Source: Facilibium subflavum
GTDB lineage: Bacteria > Pseudomonadota > Gammaproteobacteria > Francisellales > Francisellaceae
Direction of reading: 5' to 3'
NCBI RefSeq assembly: GCF_003574485.1
Contig: NZ_QLIT01000202.1
Span: 1 to 33,971, forward strand
Length of the DNA stretch: 33,971 bases
The position numbers and the translations under genes were made by a program. Positions 1 to 8,933 of this stretch are shown piece by piece; position 1 is the stretch's first letter, and each line of letters starts with the position of its first letter. The notes beneath the pieces were generated by a model, which worked only from the letters and a program-made list of their open reading frames with translations, did no database searches and had not been told where the DNA came from.

Positions 1-736
1 TAGATGCGTTTACCCTGATAAAAATTTCTCTTGCTTTATCAGTTAAATAAGTCCAGGCAATCACAAGATCGCAAGCCGGATCACCAACAGCCATACCACC
101 AAAATCAATCACACCTGATAATTGATTATCTTTAATGAGTATATTGCCTGCTGCAAAATCACCATGGATCCAAACTGGCTTTTCTTGCCAAGAGGTTGCA
201 CAAGCTTTCTCCCATAAAGCGATTGCAGCTTTAGAATCAATAACATTTGCTAAATTTGCAATTTGCTCACGGGCACCTTTATCATAAACGCTTATATGAC
301 ACCCACGCCAGAAGTTATGCTGGCCAGGCTTTGGGCCTTTTACATCTTTAATCGCTTGAAGTTCTTTCAAAAAAGTTGCTAATTGAAAAGCAATATTTTC
401 TAATGCTTTATCATCAAGCTGTGTAAGGTTGGCACTTCTGCCTTCAAGCCATTTATAAATTGAAAACAGATAAGGGTAATCATCAGATGGTTTTCCCATT
501 TTAATCGGTGCAGGAATTGGGATGCTTACATATTTTGCCAGTTGTGGCAGTAATTCTTGCTCTTTAGGCACCTTTAAAGCATAGCTTTTTGCTGTTGGCA
601 TACGAATTAACATATCATCGCCAAGTCGGTATGTTCTATTATCATGACCTTGTTGCTCAACTTCAGTTACAGTTAAGCCTGTGTATTCAGGAAATTGAGT
701 GGCTATTAGTTTTTTTGCGAGTTCAACTGTAATCAT
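1..736 (-). CDS. APH-family phosphotransferase, partial (C-terminus beyond left edge)
   Basis: The reading frame opens with ATG at 736 and is still open at the left edge, giving 245 residues. It has the core of the aminoglycoside/choline kinase-like (APH) fold: a catalytic loop HGDFAAGN (H191, D193, N198) and a metal-binding IDFGG (D211, G213), followed by the GDPACDL segment common in antibiotic phosphotransferases. The family transfers the ATP gamma-phosphate to hydroxyls of aminoglycosides, macrolides or other small metabolites, and the substrate cannot be read from this sequence. An AAGG lies 7 nt before the ATG. It sits 95 bp downstream of the GNAT-kinase fusion gene on the same strand, so it may be the last gene of that accessory transcript or have its own promoter. 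Kinase fold is secure; an antibiotic target is only a guess. Confidence 0.85.
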   Translation of the reverse strand, partial: MITVELAKKLIATQFPEYTGLTVTEVEQQGHDNRTYRLGDDMLIRMPTAKSYALKVPKEQELLPQLAKYVSIPIPAPIKMGKPSDDYPYLFSIYKWLEGRSANLTQLDDKALENIAFQLATFLKELQAIKDVKGPKPGQHNFWRGCHISVYDKGAREQIANLANVIDSKAAIALWEKACATSWQEKPVWIHGDFAAGNILIKDNQLSGVIDFGGMAVGDPACDLVIAWTYLTDKAREIFIRVNAS

Positions 737-831
737 GGTAAAACCTTATTAATTAATTTTTGAGCAATATGCATTTGAAAAGTTCGTAACAGCAGTCTGT
801 CAGTTGCTAATATTTTCATTGTTTTAACGCC

Positions 832-2424
832 CTATGTGTTATTTTTACATGTTGCCATAAATGTTTTCAATAAATCTGTGAGCTTCCAGTATTCATGCTT
901 GATTAGATTATCTATTCCACAAGCTCGTATAAATCGATCTTGATCGACTAAGCCATAAACAATGTTTACAATCTTTGATGTGGCAAGCGCATCCTCGAAA
1001 TCCCTATCAGATGTAAAGTAGGGTTGATAGTTGTTAAAGCAAGCAGCCTTGAGTCTATGATATAAATCATCTTCTTCAGATAAACCATGATGTTTTTTCA
1101 TTTGATATAAAAAATTTATCAAGGAGAAGAAGGGATGGGATATTACAATCTCGCCTAAGTCAATAATTGTTATTCTTTGATTTGTCTCATCAACCAGTGT
1201 ATTGTTATCATTAAAGTCAGGCTGGACAATGGTCTCAATGATTTGAAACTCTGCTAATTTCTTGCATAATTTGGAAACGGTAGAGGTCAGGTCACTGAGC
1301 TTTTTGATTTCGATTTCTGATAGGCTACAAGCCTTTAACAAATTTTTTTGCTGAATTAGCTGAGTGTATAAATCAGGCATTTTCTCTAAACGGTAGTCTG
1401 GAACGCCCATCCGAAGTAAGGTATTGACATGGTTAGCCATATCGTTTTGTAAGCAGGTAAATTGATCAATGGTTCTAAAGACTAACTCCTCACTAAAATT
1501 TTGGTTTAATGTTTCTCGTAACGTTTGACCTGCATTTTTCATTAAAAAGCAATTTAACTTTGAGTTTTCAGCAATAATCTGTGGCAGTGAAGCATTTGAA
1601 TTTTTTTCCAAAAATTGAATGAATTTTGCCTCTTTCGAGAACATTTCTGGTATTTTTTTTAGATAGAAAACTTCATTGCCAGTATTTATTTCGAAAACAT
1701 GGGACCATGGCGTTTTAGTGATAGCTTGACTCATTGCAAATGCTTTATTATCAGTTATTTTGAGAATATCTTTGGCCCAGTTAATTATGTGAAATCCTGA
1801 GGGTTTGCTTTTATCACTAGACCAAGAGTAATCTAGAGCAGGCAACTTTTTTATGTTATTAGTGGAATATATATAATGTTGAGCAAGATGCTTAGGTGTA
1901 CAATCAACTGAATCTCGATCTATGGTGCCCTCATTAGAAAAGTTTAACCTGATTGCAACTGCGCTGCTTTTTTTGTTTTCAATTTGCATTGAGATAACAA
2001 CTTTGTGAGCAGAAAGCACATCAAAGGCAAAACGAGTTAAAGCATTAGCATACTCCGTAACAAGCCCTTGGCCTTGATAGTCTACATCACACCAGTAGCC
2101 AATTTCATAAAGGCCATCATCGGGATCACTCCTATCATTATAACCGCTGGCTCCAATGATTCTTTTATCCTGTTTATGAATCACAACCATTGGAAAATCT
2201 TTAATACAACCTGACTCCCAAGAAAACATGCCTCTTTGAACAAAGGTTCGTGTCGCGTCAATACTGGGATCTTTTGCCCAAGGCTGCCACTTTTGTAGTA
2301 TTTCCAAAGAATTATTGATTGCTTTATTTATTTCAATTTCATCGCCGAGCCGCACCGGCCTTATGATTAGTCGCGGTGTTTCTATTTGCTTTAGTGTATA
2401 GATTGATTTTGTTTTTTCAGTCAT
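832..2424 (-). CDS. Two-domain protein: GNAT acetyltransferase fused to APH-like kinase
   Basis: The protein has 530 residues. Residues about 14-185 form a RimJ/RimL-type GNAT domain: an ETPRLIIRP start, an acidic YEIGYW strand and the acetyl-CoA pyrophosphate loop YQGQGLVTEYAN at 116-127. Residues about 215-525 form an APH-type kinase domain: a candidate ATP lysine at K256/K257, a catalytic loop QPDFNDNN (D403, N408) and IDLGE (D422, G424). The usual catalytic-loop His is Gln at 401. The layout resembles the bifunctional AAC(6')-APH(2'') enzyme, though with a RimJ-like rather than AAC(6')-like N-terminal domain. No strong Shine-Dalgarno sequence precedes the ATG at 2424. The gene lies 67 bp downstream of another GNAT gene, the gap being partly a gene remnant. 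Domain calls are secure; the substrate is unknown. Confidence 0.85.
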   Translation of the reverse strand: MTEKTKSIYTLKQIETPRLIIRPVRLGDEIEINKAINNSLEILQKWQPWAKDPSIDATRTFVQRGMFSWESGCIKDFPMVVIHKQDKRIIGASGYNDRSDPDDGLYEIGYWCDVDYQGQGLVTEYANALTRFAFDVLSAHKVVISMQIENKKSSAVAIRLNFSNEGTIDRDSVDCTPKHLAQHYIYSTNNIKKLPALDYSWSSDKSKPSGFHIINWAKDILKITDNKAFAMSQAITKTPWSHVFEINTGNEVFYLKKIPEMFSKEAKFIQFLEKNSNASLPQIIAENSKLNCFLMKNAGQTLRETLNQNFSEELVFRTIDQFTCLQNDMANHVNTLLRMGVPDYRLEKMPDLYTQLIQQKNLLKACSLSEIEIKKLSDLTSTVSKLCKKLAEFQIIETIVQPDFNDNNTLVDETNQRITIIDLGEIVISHPFFSLINFLYQMKKHHGLSEEDDLYHRLKAACFNNYQPYFTSDRDFEDALATSKIVNIVYGLVDQDRFIRACGIDNLIKHEYWKLTDLLKTFMATCKNNT

Positions 2425-2441
2425 TAAAAATGATATCCAGT

Positions 2442-2479
2442 TTACAATTTCTTGATTAATAAGTAGTGCGGCTTACCAC
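2442..2479 (-). pseudogene. Remnant C-terminus of a lost GNAT paralogue
   Basis: Read on the minus strand this short stretch encodes GKPHYLLIKKL followed by TAA at 2444-2442. It closely matches the C-terminal GKPHHLLINK of the adjacent GNAT gene. No start codon or upstream coding sequence accompanies it, so I read it as the tail of a second tandem copy left by deletion. A simple local duplication of 28 bp would look the same. Confidence 0.5.
2452..2479. repeat. 28-bp direct repeat, copy 1
   Basis: It is identical to 2511-2538 at 27 of 28 positions; the one difference is A versus G at the fourteenth base. The start-to-start distance is 59 bp. This copy lies between the two genes, and the other copy lies inside the 3' end of the GNAT gene ending at 2492. 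Confidence 0.9.
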
Positions 2480-2491
2480 ACAGAAGGGCAG

Positions 2492-3055
2492 TCAAACGTC
2501 AAAAACCTTGTTGATTAATAAGTGGTGCGGCTTACCACTGCCACTGCAATCACCACCCATGACGAAATCAGCAACGTGTTTAAAACCCGCCTTTTCATAT
2601 ACGCGTTTTGCGCGTGGGTTATCGCTTGCTGGGTCAATCAAAAATATATCTGCCTTTTCATCAAATGAATCTCTGAAAAAATCAATAAATTCAATTAAAG
2701 TTTTAGCACCATACCCTTTGCCGATATACTTCGTATTGCCAATCATGTAATCTAAGCCGTAAGTATGGCCTGTTTTAGATAAGTGTACTAATTTCAGGTT
2801 GCCAATATTATCTTGTATGGTTTCTTGGATTGTCATCAGCATGGCGTACGGCTTACCAGAATCTAGTGCAATCCAATAAATATATTTACCATCACAGTAA
2901 TCTGATGGCTCTTTTCTACCACCCATAAAGTTTAAAATGTCATCTTTATGTCCTTGAGTATTATCCCAGAATTCCTGCACATGAGGCTCTGCTAACCATG
3001 AAAAAATTATTTCTTTATATGCAGTACTTGCTTTTTCAAAAGTAATCTTATTCAT
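2492..3055 (-). CDS. GNAT acetyltransferase, AAC(6')-like
   Basis: The protein has 187 residues from the ATG at 3055. It belongs to the GNAT group containing aminoglycoside 6'-N-acetyltransferases: an N-terminal WLAEPHVQEFWDN motif, an acetyl-CoA loop GNTKYIGKGYGAKTL, and the late DPASDNPRAKRVYEKAGF motif. The family moves an acetyl group from acetyl-CoA to an amine; aminoglycosides are one possible substrate. The frame extends upstream to 3136, but ATG 3055 has a GAGGA 5 nt before it and overlaps the upstream stop codon by 8 nt (ATGAATAA), so it is the likely start and is translationally coupled to the nuclease gene. The 3' end contains one copy of the 28-bp repeat. Confidence 0.85.
   Translation of the reverse strand: MNKITFEKASTAYKEIIFSWLAEPHVQEFWDNTQGHKDDILNFMGGRKEPSDYCDGKYIYWIALDSGKPYAMLMTIQETIQDNIGNLKLVHLSKTGHTYGLDYMIGNTKYIGKGYGAKTLIEFIDFFRDSFDEKADIFLIDPASDNPRAKRVYEKAGFKHVADFVMGGDCSGSGKPHHLLINKVFDV
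2511..2538. repeat. 28-bp direct repeat, copy 2
   Basis: This is the partner of 2452-2479. It encodes the GKPHHLLIN part of the GNAT C-terminus on the minus strand, which suggests that copy 1 was once coding as well. Confidence 0.9.
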
Positions 3056-4094
3056 CACTGTCCTCATCAGAGTTAATTCTTTTCGATAACTCAGATTCAA
3101 GCTCTTCAATCGTTGGTAGTGATGTTTTAATATCATCAGGTAATGAATCTTCTAGGCGATATTCAGCAAGTCCTATTGGTTTTGTCATATCACGCAATGC
3201 ATATTCTGCTAAAACACCCACCTTTGATCGACACAGAATTAAGCCAATAGATGGGTTATCACCAGAATGTTTTAATAAATCATCAACAGCAGATAAGTAA
3301 AAATTCATTTTGCCTGCGTATTCTGGTTTAAACTGACCAGACTTGAGTTCTATAACAACAAAAGAACGTAGTTTTATGTGGTAAAAAAGCATATCAATAT
3401 AGAAATCCTGATCTTCAACTTGCAAGTGATATTGCCTTCCTAGAAATGCAAATCCTTCACCTAGCTCTAAAAGAAATTGTTCTATGTGCTTTACTAAACC
3501 TTTTTCGACTTCTCGTTCTTGAGCTTTGTCTCCAAGACTTAAAAAATCAAATAAATATGGATTTTTCAGTGTAGATTGTGCTAGGTCTGATTGAGGTAAC
3601 GGTAATTTTTTATCAAAATTGGTAACGGCCGTGCCTTTCCTTTTATGTAATTTGGTTTCTATTTGCATTGACAGTACGTTTCTAGACCAGCCTTTTTCAA
3701 CTGTTTGATTTACATAGAAATTTATTTGCTCTTTATCTAGTCCTGAGTACATAAGGAGTACGATATGTCCCCAAGGGATTTGGTCAACAGCCTGTTGACC
3801 AATTTCAGTTTGGCTAAATTCCTCTGCAAATTTACGCATATATTTAAGGTTCTGGGGGCTAAATCCCTTCATATCTGGGAACTCTGCTCTTAAGTCTATT
3901 GATAGCTGATTAATAATCTTAGCTCCCCATCCTTCTTTTTCTTGCGACTGCAAAATAATATTGCCTATGTGATGATAAAGATTAATTAGCTCGTTGTTAA
4001 CTTTAACAGCAGCCCTATATCTTGATGCAGTTACACGCGTTTTAAGCTCTAGAAATAATTTGTTGTATTTTTGATCAATAATCATTTTTCCCAT
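3048..4094 (-). CDS. yhcG: YhcG/DUF1016-family PD-(D/E)XK nuclease
   Basis: The protein has 348 residues. Residues about 10-165 match the DUF1016 N-terminal helical domain, with markers SRYRAAVKVNNELINLYHHIG and VDQIPWGHIVLLM. Residues about 175-330 are the nuclease domain, with D234 in FYIDMLFYH and E249-L-K251 in FVVIELKSG forming the PD-(D/E)XK core. YhcG proteins are predicted nucleases often found near restriction-modification genes. Here there is no hsdM, hsdR or hsdS; the neighbours are acetyltransferases. The ATG at 4094 shares its A with the upstream TAA (TAATG), giving tight coupling. A second in-frame ATG lies at 4085. Family assignment is firm; the cellular role is unclear. Confidence 0.9.
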   Translation of the reverse strand: MGKMIIDQKYNKLFLELKTRVTASRYRAAVKVNNELINLYHHIGNIILQSQEKEGWGAKIINQLSIDLRAEFPDMKGFSPQNLKYMRKFAEEFSQTEIGQQAVDQIPWGHIVLLMYSGLDKEQINFYVNQTVEKGWSRNVLSMQIETKLHKRKGTAVTNFDKKLPLPQSDLAQSTLKNPYLFDFLSLGDKAQEREVEKGLVKHIEQFLLELGEGFAFLGRQYHLQVEDQDFYIDMLFYHIKLRSFVVIELKSGQFKPEYAGKMNFYLSAVDDLLKHSGDNPSIGLILCRSKVGVLAEYALRDMTKPIGLAEYRLEDSLPDDIKTSLPTIEELESELSKRINSDEDSDE

Positions 4095-4561
4095 TATTTT
4101 TGCTCCAAATATAATTTCACACCTTCGTGGCTGGCTTTAAATCCCAGCTTTTCGTAAAATCGAAGAGCATCTGTGCGTTCTTTATTGGTGGTTAATTGAA
4201 GAATTGTGGCGCCATGATCGAAGCCCCAATTAATGACAACTTCAATCATCTGCTGCCCTAAATTCTGACCTCTAATGCTTGAATTGACTCTAACGGCTTC
4301 TATCTGCAAACACGTGGATCCTAAAAAGGTCAGTGAAGGCATTAAGGTTAAAGGGCATGTTCCTATTACTTCTCCATCATTCTCAAGAACCATGAGATAT
4401 TGATTTGAATCACTGTCAATTTTAGCAAATGCATCAAGGTATTCTTGCGCCACTTCGCTACCCGCTTGCTCACGCGTACAACCTAATTTGTCATCAGCGA
4501 GTAGCTTTATAATTTGACTAAAATCGCCGATTTGCGCTTTTCTGTGTGTAACATTATTCAT
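4094..4561 (-). CDS. GNAT-family N-acetyltransferase
   Basis: This is a single-domain GNAT of 155 residues. It has IEAVRVNSSIRGQNLGQQMIE (strand 4 plus the acetyl-CoA pyrophosphate loop, RGQNLG) and the C-terminal RTDALRFYEKLGF. It differs from its AAC(6')-like neighbours and resembles the general small-molecule or peptide GNAT type, so the acceptor cannot be predicted. The start overlaps the stop of the upstream gene by 4 nt (ATGA at 4561-4558), and the stop overlaps the next start by one base, placing it inside a coupled series. No toxin-type context (a DUF1778 antitoxin) is visible. Confidence 0.85.
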   Translation of the reverse strand: MNNVTHRKAQIGDFSQIIKLLADDKLGCTREQAGSEVAQEYLDAFAKIDSDSNQYLMVLENDGEVIGTCPLTLMPSLTFLGSTCLQIEAVRVNSSIRGQNLGQQMIEVVINWGFDHGATILQLTTNKERTDALRFYEKLGFKASHEGVKLYLEQK

Positions 4562-5487
4562 CTTATTATACCGCCAATGTTAATTTCGAAATCTCTCTCA
4601 AAAAAATCAATCAAATGCTTTGCATATTGACGTAAATTTTTTGTATCATTTGTTATTAATAATTTATGAACGGAACCAGCTCTTGTGGCTCTACTATTTA
4701 TAAAAAACTCATTAAGTTCAGGAGTTATGCAGTACTGCTCATATTGGATTGGTTTTATTTCCTCTTGATTCTTCAAGTTAAATTTACTTCTTACTAAGGA
4801 TTCAAAAACACTCCGCAATTGAATTGAAGCATCAATTCTTAGATCATGATTAATATAGTAAATGCTTTTCCAAAGATTGGATAAAATATAGAATGGCTGT
4901 AAATTATATTGGCAATTTTCATCTTTAATTTGCAGTATGGAATCGAAATTCTTAATTGCTTGTTTAGCAAATTTTAAATCAGATATACAACATGGTTCTT
5001 TTTGAGACATTGATTCGCATGCTATTTCATATGCTTTGCTCGAAAAAGAAGCTCCACTATTGATGTAATCATCAAATGGCATTAAGATCTTGTCGACAGT
5101 ATTTGGAATCATAAATTGATCAATGTCATTGGTTATTTCTGCTCTTTTTAAATGATTTGAATAAGTAACATTTTGCTGTGCTTTTCTTTGTTCATTATAG
5201 ATAAGTGCATTGATTGCATTGATAACTTCTTTTTGAAGGCTGATTGCTATACTTTTCTCTGCTTTTTCAAAATCGTTAAGCTCGTTAAGATTTAATATTG
5301 GACACATATATCCCAACTCGCAATCTGAAAAATCAAGAAAATAATAAAAATTATTAAAAAAGGATATTTTGATGCCGTAGTGCAAGGTACACTCGAACAT
5401 GATCTTATGACGCTTTTGAGAAGAGTCACAAAGAATATTGCGCAAATCAAAAAAGGCTATTAATCCATTAATAGAGAAATAGCTCAT
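4558..5487 (-). CDS. Unrecognised A+T-rich protein with HEPN-like C-terminal motif
   Basis: I do not recognise the family of this 309-residue protein. The N-terminal 65 residues are hydrophobic and beta-rich without a clear signal peptide. The middle (70-190) and C-terminal (195-300) parts look helical. Near the C-terminus, helix LRSVFESLVRSKFN (224-237) is followed by SRATRAGSVH, with R269-x4-H274, and another helix ending DFFERDFE. That order resembles HEPN ribonuclease folds (R-x4-6-H), but this is inference from a short motif. Hand counts of three 60-nt stretches (from 4621, 4861 and 4921) gave 25-27% G+C against 42% at 9481, hinting at foreign origin. Both ends overlap neighbours by 4 nt (ATGA). 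Confidence 0.75.
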   Translation of the reverse strand: MSYFSINGLIAFFDLRNILCDSSQKRHKIMFECTLHYGIKISFFNNFYYFLDFSDCELGYMCPILNLNELNDFEKAEKSIAISLQKEVINAINALIYNEQRKAQQNVTYSNHLKRAEITNDIDQFMIPNTVDKILMPFDDYINSGASFSSKAYEIACESMSQKEPCCISDLKFAKQAIKNFDSILQIKDENCQYNLQPFYILSNLWKSIYYINHDLRIDASIQLRSVFESLVRSKFNLKNQEEIKPIQYEQYCITPELNEFFINSRATRAGSVHKLLITNDTKNLRQYAKHLIDFFERDFEINIGGIIR

Positions 5488-6353
5488 TTTCCCCCTCCAT
5501 CGATTATGGTTCCTTGGTGAAATACCATTTGCAGGCGACCATCAATTGATATCCAAATTGAAGAGCGCAATACTTCAATGCCACTTTCTAGCGTTCTAAA
5601 ATTTATAAGATACGTAGTATCTCCTAGTGATTTTACCTCAAAATATTTTGCATTTAATTCTTTTGGTTCTTCGTTTGGTAACCTGCTCAGGATATCTTGT
5701 TTATTATAAACCAAACCAGATTTGCCAAACTCTTTAAAATCATCAGCCAATAACTCATCTAAAGTATTAATGGATTTTCGTGTGGCAGAGACAAGAAGCT
5801 TCTTTTCTAACAATTCTATTTCGTTAAAATCATTTCTAGGCTTAACCATCAGAATTACAGATTCACTAGTTTGATCATCAAAAGGTTTAAAGCCCGCATT
5901 CTCATAAGTTTTTCTTGCAGCCAAATTGCTGCTGTTAGGATCAACCAAGGCGTAATCAAACTCTGTAAACACATGACTTTCTAAAAATAATCCTAAGGAC
6001 TTGGATCCAATGCCTTTACCAAGGTAATTTTCATCGCCAATAAACATATCTATTGCTGCAAGTGACTTTGGCAAGTTATTTAATTGCTCGCTATCTCTTG
6101 AGAAATCATACGCATTATAATACTGGATATAGCCTATAGGTTGTTTGTCATATTCAATTATAAAAGCATGTATTGGTTTGATTTCATTGCCAATCTGTTT
6201 GTAGCCATCAACATAGCTTGTGTATTTTTCTTTAACGCGTTTTAAAGTGTAATTCGTCTCATTATCCCACCATTTTTTTACATGGGGTGTCTGTAACCAG
6301 GAAAGTAAAATGGTGAAATCTGAATGAGAAAGTGGTTTAAAACTTATTGTCAT
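5484..6353 (-). CDS. AAC(6')-like GNAT fused to NTF2-like (DUF4440) domain
   Basis: The protein has 289 residues. Residues about 1-170 match the AAC(6')-Ib-like GNAT group: LLSWLQTPHVKKWWDN, PIGYIQYYNAYD, MFIGDENYLGKGIGSK and DPNSSNLAARKTYENAGF. Residues about 178-289 look like a DUF4440/SnoaL-type NTF2 fold, with LLADDFKEFGKSG, a SIWISIDGRLQMVFHQG strand pair and a terminal TIIDGGGK. The frame can begin at GTG 6359, but ATG 6353 is the likelier start. It is the first gene of the coupled accessory series; no good sigma-70 promoter is seen in the 92 bp before it, so read-through from metIQ is possible. Aminoglycoside modification is plausible for the first domain and untested. Confidence 0.85.
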   Translation of the reverse strand: MTISFKPLSHSDFTILLSWLQTPHVKKWWDNETNYTLKRVKEKYTSYVDGYKQIGNEIKPIHAFIIEYDKQPIGYIQYYNAYDFSRDSEQLNNLPKSLAAIDMFIGDENYLGKGIGSKSLGLFLESHVFTEFDYALVDPNSSNLAARKTYENAGFKPFDDQTSESVILMVKPRNDFNEIELLEKKLLVSATRKSINTLDELLADDFKEFGKSGLVYNKQDILSRLPNEEPKELNAKYFEVKSLGDTTYLINFRTLESGIEVLRSSIWISIDGRLQMVFHQGTIIDGGGK

Positions 6354-6445
6354 AATCACTCATAATATCTATCGCTTTTAAGAACATCATGTCATTGTTA
6401 ATCATTATCTGTGATACGACAAGCAAATAGACAGTTATTTTTGTT

Positions 6446-7903
6446 TTACCATGCAGCAATCGCTGCATCATCTGGATAAAGTTTTTGTGCAAGCTTCTCA
6501 ACTTTAGGTGACTGATAAGCCTCAACAAATTTATGTAAAAGCGGGTCATTTTGATCTTGGTCTCTGACCACGATGATATTGGCAAAAGGTGAGTCTTTGG
6601 GCTCGACAAACAATGCTTGTTTTAAGGTCAGATGTGCTTTTGGCAAGAAATCGTTATTAATCACGGCAAGGCTGACACTGTTTAAATTATTTGCCACCTG
6701 ATCAGCTTGTAATGGAATGATCTGAAGCTTATAGGGGTTAGAAATAACATCATCAAGATTTGCCTTCCAGGTAACCCCTGGCTTTAATTTAATTAAGCCT
6801 GCATCTGCTAAAATCATCAATGCGCGGCCACGATTTGTTGGATCATTTGGAATAGCGACTTTAGCACCAACAGGGACAGCATTAAGTGAGTGTATGCTGT
6901 TAGAGAATAACCCCATTGGATAAATAAAAGTTTTACCAATAGATGTGATTTTATAGCCAAACTGCTTGATCTGGTTTTCTAAAAATGGAATATGTTGAAA
7001 AACATTGGCATCAATATCACCATCACTTAAGGCACGATTAGGCAGGTTATAATCACCAAAAGAGATAAGTTTTACATCTAAGCCATATTTATCAAGGGCG
7101 ATTTGCTTGACTAAGTGCATGATCTTGTCTTGCTCTGGTGATTTTGTATAACCGACCGTAATAATATTTGTTTTCTGTGCTGACTGATAAGTACTATAGC
7201 CAATTTGAGCAACTGATCCGATTGCCAATAAGCCTGTTAGCACCCATACACTGATTAACTTTTTCGTCTGGGTTAAAAACTTCCCATAAGATTGGCATAA
7301 CTGCACTAAGATAATCAGTAAAATAACGCCACCATAAAGCAAAAACAAATTGCCATCGTTATAGCCTTGGAAGTAGGTCAGATCTCCTAAACCGCCACCA
7401 CCAACAATACCAGCCATTGCTGAATAACCAATAAGGCCGATTGTGGTCAGCGTTGCCGCATCAACCAGCAATGTTTTGGCCTCGGGTAAAAGGACTTTAA
7501 AGATGATTTGTGCTTTGGTCGCACCCATCGAATTTGCCGCTTCAATCAAGCCTTTATCCACTTCAGCAATTGCAGATTCAGCAAGCCTTGCATAAAAAGG
7601 CAGTGCGGCAATGGCTAAAGGGACAATTGATGCAGTTGTACCAATTGTTGTGCCAACGATAAGCTTTGTTACCGGGTACAATAAAATCAACAAGATAATA
7701 TAGGGAATGGAGCGGGTAACATTAACAATAAACCCGACAACTGTGTTAAACAGGCGGATGGCTAAATTGTTTTTGTTATAAGATAAATGCAATAATACAC
7801 CCAATATTAATCCACCAACAATAGCAATCACCGTGGCAATAAAAACCATGTAAACAGTCTGCCATGTGGCAAGCAGTAGATTAAAAAGCATTTGCTGCAG
7901 CAT
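6446..7903 (-). CDS. metIQ: Fused methionine ABC transporter permease and binding protein
   Basis: The protein has 485 residues. Residues about 1-215 are MetI, a permease with several membrane helices and the EAA loop EAANSMGATKAQ near 121-132 that contacts MetN. Residues about 218-240 form a further membrane helix. Residues about 246-485 are a MetQ/NlpA-type binding protein (VGYTKSPEQDKI, DIDANVFQHIPFL, PNDPTNRGRAL). The binding domain would be held to the permease on the periplasmic face instead of by a lipid anchor; there is no lipobox Cys. The longest frame starts at TTG 7909, but ATG 7903 has GGAGGT 8 nt upstream and is chosen. The start overlaps metN by 23 nt. Confidence 0.92.
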   Translation of the reverse strand: MLQQMLFNLLLATWQTVYMVFIATVIAIVGGLILGVLLHLSYNKNNLAIRLFNTVVGFIVNVTRSIPYIILLILLYPVTKLIVGTTIGTTASIVPLAIAALPFYARLAESAIAEVDKGLIEAANSMGATKAQIIFKVLLPEAKTLLVDAATLTTIGLIGYSAMAGIVGGGGLGDLTYFQGYNDGNLFLLYGGVILLIILVQLCQSYGKFLTQTKKLISVWVLTGLLAIGSVAQIGYSTYQSAQKTNIITVGYTKSPEQDKIMHLVKQIALDKYGLDVKLISFGDYNLPNRALSDGDIDANVFQHIPFLENQIKQFGYKITSIGKTFIYPMGLFSNSIHSLNAVPVGAKVAIPNDPTNRGRALMILADAGLIKLKPGVTWKANLDDVISNPYKLQIIPLQADQVANNLNSVSLAVINNDFLPKAHLTLKQALFVEPKDSPFANIIVVRDQDQNDPLLHKFVEAYQSPKVEKLAQKLYPDDAAIAAW

Positions 7904-8933
7904 AGCCAATGACCTCCATTTTTAAATCTTGATTATTTAAATAAGTCAACGCATCTTCCCAGCTCTTTTTCTCACCTTGCATGTGGCATATGGTTACACC
8001 AACAGATTGGGATTGTACGCGTTCAATATTTGCCTGGATGATGTTGCATGCAACATTAAATTTCCGGCTAAGTTCAGCAATAACAGGTGTTGTGATAGCA
8101 TCACCAAGAAAAGTTAATTTGATCACAGGGCTTAAGTTTTCACTATGATACGGGTTATCAAACAGCTTTTGCTCGATATCTTCAGGCAATTTTAAATGCA
8201 TACTGTTTTCAGTGAAGTTTTTGGCAATTTTGGTTTTGGGGTTTAAAAACAACTCAGTAACGGTACCAACTTCTTGAATAATCCCTTGGTCAATAATGGC
8301 GACTTTGTCACATATTTTGCGGATAACATCCATTTCATGGGTGATTAATACAATTGTAATACCAAGCTCTTTATTTAACCGCTTTAATAATTTTAAAATC
8401 TGATCCGTTGTTTCAGGGTCAAGTGCAGAAGTTGCTTCATCACATAAAAGGGCAATTGGATCACTGGCTAACGCGCGCGCAATCCCAACACGTTGTTTTT
8501 GGCCGCCGCTTAGCTCATCAGGATAACTTTGTGCTTTTTGTGATAACCCAACCAGATCTAAAAGCTGTGTGACTTTTTCATGAATAGTTGTTTTAGCGAT
8601 GTGCTGCAGCTCCAAGGGAAAGGCAACATTATCGTGCACTGTTCTTGATGATAATAAATTAAAGTGTTGAAATATCATGCCTATTTTCTGCCTTGCTTTT
8701 CGTAAGGCATCAGCTGATTTTTTCGTTAAGTCATCATCATTAATGATTATCGTGCCTTCTGTTGGCTGCTCAAGCAAGTTTAAGCAACGGATCAAAGTGC
8801 TCTTTCCTGCGCCACTTTTACCAATAATGCCAAAAATTTCGCCACTTTTGATCTCAAGATCAATACCATTTAAGGCGATGTGACGCGTATTTTTGCCAAT
8901 ATATTCTTTTTTTAGGCCTTCAATACGAATCAT
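7881..8933 (-). CDS. metN: Methionine import ATP-binding protein MetN
   Basis: This is a 350-residue ABC ATPase. Walker A is GKSGAGKST at 38-46, the signature is LSGGQKQR, Walker B is ALLCDEATSALD, and the switch histidine lies in ITHEMDV. After about residue 265 comes the ACT-like NIL domain of MetN, which in E. coli binds methionine and slows transport. It drives import of L- and D-methionine through the fused MetIQ protein encoded immediately downstream. The ribosome binding site of metIQ lies within the last codons of this gene, so translation is likely coupled. An AAGGG lies 10 nt before the ATG at 8933. Confidence 0.95.
   Translation of the reverse strand: MIRIEGLKKEYIGKNTRHIALNGIDLEIKSGEIFGIIGKSGAGKSTLIRCLNLLEQPTEGTIIINDDDLTKKSADALRKARQKIGMIFQHFNLLSSRTVHDNVAFPLELQHIAKTTIHEKVTQLLDLVGLSQKAQSYPDELSGGQKQRVGIARALASDPIALLCDEATSALDPETTDQILKLLKRLNKELGITIVLITHEMDVIRKICDKVAIIDQGIIQEVGTVTELFLNPKTKIAKNFTENSMHLKLPEDIEQKLFDNPYHSENLSPVIKLTFLGDAITTPVIAELSRKFNVACNIIQANIERVQSQSVGVTICHMQGEKKSWEDALTYLNNQDLKMEVIGYAAANAF

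Follow-up and report, generated by a model that had tools for sequence, protein, structure and literature searches.

Whether a tightly packed string of acetyltransferase, kinase and nuclease genes forms one machine or a collection of circulating genes is the question raised by the first part of this window, by which we mean the whole 33,971-nucleotide stretch analyzed here, which makes up all of contig C197, one of the 378 contigs of a draft genome of 2.87 Mb. Seven minus-strand genes, running from 6353 down to 2, follow one another end to start, and the original prediction raised the possibility that they act together. Our data indicate that the cluster resembles a pool of resistance-type genes more than one new machine, and we consider it likely that drug-modification-type genes circulate horizontally here as an array in which the nuclease YhcG rides as cargo. 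The features of the cluster, referred to below as W7 to W1, are as follows.

5484..6359, minus strand: W7, AAC(6')-like GNAT fused to DUF4440 (SnoaL/NTF2-like), with a start at ATG 6353 or GTG 6359
4558..5487, minus strand: W6, orphan protein of 309 aa without a family
4094..4561, minus strand: W5, single-domain GNAT
3048..4094, minus strand: W4, YhcG/DUF1016 PD-(D/E)XK nuclease, PADLOC candidate PDC-S02
2492..3055, minus strand: W3, AAC(6')-like GNAT, a shortened version of an AAC(6')-GNAT(-GNAT) fusion
2449..2538, minus strand: duplication scar, a 31-nt copied end of an AAC(6')-like gene
832..2424, minus strand: W2, fusion of a RimJ-type GNAT with an APH domain of weak score
737..831, minus strand: remnant of a RimJ-type GNAT gene, complete in genome G017, where the same two genes flank it
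2..736, minus strand: W1, APH(2'')-like APH, broken off past about residue 240, where the contig ends

The computed junctions are, in order, overlaps of 4, 4, 1 and 8 nt and then gaps of 67 and 95 nt; the overlaps agree with those originally described, and Pfam bore out the predicted content of four GNAT domains, two APH domains, one nuclease and one unknown protein, adding the DUF4440 domain in W7 that had been missed. The cluster lies downstream of metN/metIQ on the same strand. In this neighboring locus, metI and metQ (methionine ABC permease and substrate-binding lipoprotein) are fused as a single gene at 6446-7909. A search for the insertion junction next to metNIQ gave no readable empty site, since the genes surrounding metG are ordered differently in the relatives. 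Promoter-like matches were no more frequent than in shuffled sequences and terminator-like matches only slightly more so; a shared operon promoter was rejected since the scans did no better than shuffles. A search for Rfam elements found none.

What might the enzymes of this cluster do? W7 combines Acetyltransf_8 with DUF4440 (Pfam) and its nearest solved structures are AAC(6') enzymes (E 1.5e-18); the fusion was found only in the window, and W7 matches in 30 family genomes span one half or the other only. W5 (Acetyltransf_1, Pfam) has homologs in G025 (61%, broken), G052 (44%), G124 and G131, with its 3' end kept in G003. For W3 (Acetyltransf_8, Pfam), the longer AAC(6')-GNAT(-GNAT) fusion was found in G030, G025, L126 and a Legionella plasmid. 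W2 contains Acetyltransf_3 and an APH domain below the Pfam cut-off (E 0.0024), while W1 contains an APH domain (Pfam, E 1.9e-37) and has APH(2'') gentamicin kinases as its nearest solved structures (E 3e-15). No copy of the fusion protein was found in the viral contigs searched. Homology thus supports a role in small-molecule modification, as originally suggested, with AAC(6') nearest to W7 and APH(2'') nearest to W1. None of the cluster's enzymes reached a curated AAC or APH family cut-off: against the AAC(6') NCBIfam models the best score was 68 bits versus 340 for W7 and 45 bits for W3, and against APH(2'') W1, which is also truncated, scored 57 bits versus 625. Judging from fold and closest kin, these acetyl- and phosphotransferases probably inactivate toxic small molecules, aminocyclitol-like or other, and such molecules would probably be met inside or around protist hosts.

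The orphan W6 had been described as possibly HEPN-like. We found that W6 matches no Pfam family, HEPN-type profiles included, even at E 10, and that the two R-x4-6-H strings it contains are at chance level, as approximately 50% of shuffled sequences carry at least one. An AlphaFold2 model, made without relatives, reached a mean pLDDT of 33. With no profile, a chance-level motif and no usable fold, the HEPN identity of W6 is not supported. Relatives of W6 were absent from plasmids, phages, viral contigs and 369 class genomes, except for one decayed 66-residue match in a single distant genome (G052). Residues 76-209 of W6 give a weak match (E 1.6e-4) to the PADLOC profile for the retron-associated PRTase.

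Could the cluster nevertheless be one defense system, with a nucleic acid or a signal as the target of the GNATs and kinases, and with YhcG and the orphan executing the defense? The overlapping genes on one strand, the status of YhcG as a PADLOC candidate defense gene and the orphan's weak retron-associated match would fit such a system, whereas an orphan lacking homologs beyond one decayed fragment and carrying a HEPN motif at chance frequency would not. Homologs were sought gene by gene and their surroundings then read, and neither the 30 family genomes nor 135 relatives conserve the seven genes as one unit. Instead, the relatives hold the same modules single, shuffled, eroded or fused, together with other genes of resistance type (CPT, VOC, nucleotidyltransferase, metallo-hydrolase and more GNAT genes). 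In G017, a GNAT gene and part of a W2 homolog (75%) lie on one contig, and the rest of W2, the RimJ-type GNAT and W1 (73%) on another; a further G017 contig carries W3-type fusion fragments, VOC, GNAT, methyltransferase, a W1-type APH (71%) and metallo-hydrolase, mostly joined by short overlaps. In G030, which belongs to another family, W3 (89%), a second GNAT and W1 (75%) are fused in one frame, followed by CPT, a C-terminal remnant of YhcG, DUF1697, a repeat of the APH end, and then GNATs and a nucleotidyltransferase. In G025 the W3-type fusion comes straight after the broken W5 and the intervening YhcG is absent, and L126, from a bin whose Rickettsia typhi label is doubtful, has CPT, YhcG, GNAT and an AAC(6')-GNAT-GNAT fusion in that order. 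This single and shuffled occurrence in relatives is what the original prediction had named as evidence against its proposed functional unit, which our data do not support. One defense system is largely refuted by the shuffling, and we regard it as very improbable.

The shuffling has left traces within the window itself. The gap at 737-831 contains the first codons of a RimJ-type GNAT gene, identical at 24 of 24 nt to the intact G017 gene in the same place, and in the region of the 67-nt gap (2449-2538) the last 31 nt of the AAC(6')-like gene are present as a second copy; judging from these remnants, both gaps are rearrangement scars. W1 stops matching all of its relatives at residues 239-242, where the contig ends, and the last 19 bases of the contig recur once in the same genome, on another contig, next to an 89-aa open frame that resembles a transposase C-terminus by eye and has no Pfam match. 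Since the loss of matches coincides with a contig end whose 19 bases recur elsewhere, W1 was probably broken by an insertion sequence. Erosion is seen in G003, where the last W5 codons, the whole of YhcG and the first nine W3 codons are followed by the tail of a W3-type fusion, the W3 codons meeting the fusion tail at a short A/T-rich similarity. At L100, a direct repeat of approximately 145 bp (5925-6073 and 7735-7880), composed of an APH end and a CPT start, flanks CPT, a YhcG remnant and DUF1697, and looks as if the flanked block had been duplicated or integrated by recombination.

Such damage could mean that the cluster is a decaying, functionless gene graveyard left behind by mobile elements, and the scars at W3/W2 and W2/W1, the broken W1, the broken homologs in G025 and the split W2 in G017 are all consistent with this. 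However, six of the seven frames are open, and W3 and W4 have low dN/dS values (approximately 0.08 for W3 and 0.05 for YhcG) relative to horizontally related copies. By this measure W3 and W4 are shown to be under purifying selection, which is strong for YhcG, and we find a graveyard quite improbable.

Our data also bear on how these genes arrived. YhcG of the window and of G003 are 98% identical in amino acids and 95% in nucleotides while MetG of the same pair is only 78% identical, which argues that the YhcG block moved horizontally. W3 is 89% identical to its G030 counterpart; a search for MetG in G030 found none, and in two other members of the family of G030 MetG is 54-57% identical. These identities clearly indicate that W3 and W4 were acquired horizontally.

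We then considered whether YhcG is only a passenger. W4 has both YhcG domains (DUF1016_N, E 1.6e-43; YhcG_C, E 1.1e-63; Pfam) and the catalytic D ... E-x-K residues (DFYIDMLFY...VVIELKS), and it matches the PADLOC candidate defense profile PDC-S02 at E 4.9e-150. YhcG has been predicted to be a nuclease, with its function left unassigned (PMC1189080), and a rickettsial conjugative plasmid element carries DUF1016 as cargo, with its nearest kin in Legionella (PMC4316617). Among the YhcG relatives listed in our matches, some of which come from metagenome bins that may mix contigs, two lie directly behind Tn3 transposases (L096, 51%; L107, 66%), so YhcG may be a regular passenger of Tn3-type transposons. 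The L096 unit (2877-7610; contig C17 of the window's own genome) and the L107 unit (7-4890; G028) each consist of a Tn3-family transposase and a resolvase, with YhcG directly downstream of the transposase. The YhcG genes of L124 and L125 (72%) follow an integrase-core transposase and an AAA ATPase, and those of L121 and L134 lie among conjugation genes. The order integrase-core transposase, AAA ATPase, YhcG forms a transposon-like unit conserved between two bins (L124:2-3215 and L125:668-4966), with a resolvase in L125.

Among the same listed relatives, three YhcG genes lie in or beside GNAT genes: L123 (a Holosporales MAG, 73%), L126 (66%) and L128 (an alphaproteobacterial MAG, 65%). Adding the window and the eroded G003 copy to these three alphaproteobacterial MAGs, YhcG is found in or beside GNAT arrays at several places, and since this clade's YhcG occurs there in several distant genomes, its co-location with GNAT genes is not a one-off. 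A Pfam tally of two genes on each side of YhcG gave, in a first batch, four Acetyltransf_1 proteins among 111, namely those of L123, L126 (two) and L128. In a batch of more distant YhcGs (117 proteins, very long ones excluded), Acetyltransf_1 was missing from the list of 25 families, which leaves room for one such protein at most; type I restriction genes dominate that batch. HsdM, HsdS and HsdR were sought near the window YhcG and none was found. In a tree with several weak forks, array-borne and transposon-borne YhcG fall together in two subclades; because the two kinds interleave, YhcG probably entered arrays at least twice.

These observations raise the possibility that YhcG does work for the array, its cuts driving insertion, amplification or reshuffling, or that arrays are kept through YhcG serving as an addiction or anti-competitor gene. 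Its repeated presence in or beside GNATs in the window, L123, L126 and L128, the remnant in G030 and the eroded copy in G003, the repeated entry into arrays read from the tree, the strong purifying selection and the CPT gene that adjoins both YhcG in L126 and the YhcG remnant in G030 all argue for such a role. On the other hand, most arrays examined here are without YhcG (G017, G025 and the Legionella plasmid stretches), and a common mobile-element pool in intracellular bacteria can explain the neighbors. Further, the YhcG inside the GNAT array of L123 (6001-7041) has an intact frame in which D-L-L replaces the catalytic E-x-K, removing the catalytic lysine, and is possibly inactive. On balance, we judge a working role for YhcG to be rather unlikely, and the more specific proposal that selection keeps this clade's YhcG as a functioning member of drug-modification arrays in bacteria associated with protists, for example through cutting at module borders to drive shuffling or through array retention, is unlikely as well.

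The reading that we prefer, a circulating drug-modification-type array with YhcG as cargo, would work as follows. The array would grow and shrink through insertion, short-repeat deletion and gene fusion, and each new member, given the end-to-start packing, would probably be translated by coupling from the gene upstream. YhcG would be brought in by transposons or conjugative elements and maintained by selection for an activity of its own, separate from the drug chemistry; most likely, it would cut competing or invading DNA or stabilize the element. The hosts, to go by the named relatives, would be protist-associated. Against YhcG as pure cargo, it recurs beside GNATs (L123, L126, L128) more than cargo would require, with none found near the distant YhcGs, and the array reading leaves W6 and W7 unexplained. 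Overall, our data point to a common pool of antibiotic-modification-type genes that is actively rearranging in bacteria mostly living with protists, and whose genes are packed precisely end to start, without integron sites. Should the recurrence of YhcG prove functional, it would offer a role open to testing for this very widespread family of nucleases.

How does this cluster compare with known systems? The open-access literature searched yielded no paper on a combination of YhcG with a GNAT array. Like integron cassette arrays, the window holds a shuffled, one-strand string of resistance-type genes, but an integron array was rejected since the first four junctions overlap and leave no room for attC. 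No integron integrase was present among the neighboring proteins scanned with Pfam, the contig ending at base 1. YhcG genes associated with type I restriction belong to the same protein family, and their Hsd neighbors are missing at the window copy. The bifunctional AAC(6')-Ie / APH(2'') and related aminoglycoside-modifying enzymes are the nearest structures or profiles for W7, W3 and W1, yet the window proteins fall far below all curated cut-offs and have other domain combinations. The RAGE of the R. felis plasmid pLbaR (PMC4316617) likewise carries a YhcG-family nuclease as mobile-element cargo in intracellular bacteria, although YhcG lies inside transfer genes there and among drug-modifying-type enzymes here. 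Conjugative Legionella plasmids, for example L. anisa NZ_CP082855.1, couple a bifunctional GNAT/APH gene to an APH gene and have a run of APH, GNAT, GNAT and GNAT genes with short overlaps, similar to the packing of the window; 58% identity is found there to the W3-type fusion in its second GNAT domain. The stretch viewed lacks YhcG, the AAC(6')-DUF4440 fusion and the orphan gene, and it lies on a plasmid, whereas the contig that forms the window carries genes of chromosomal type.
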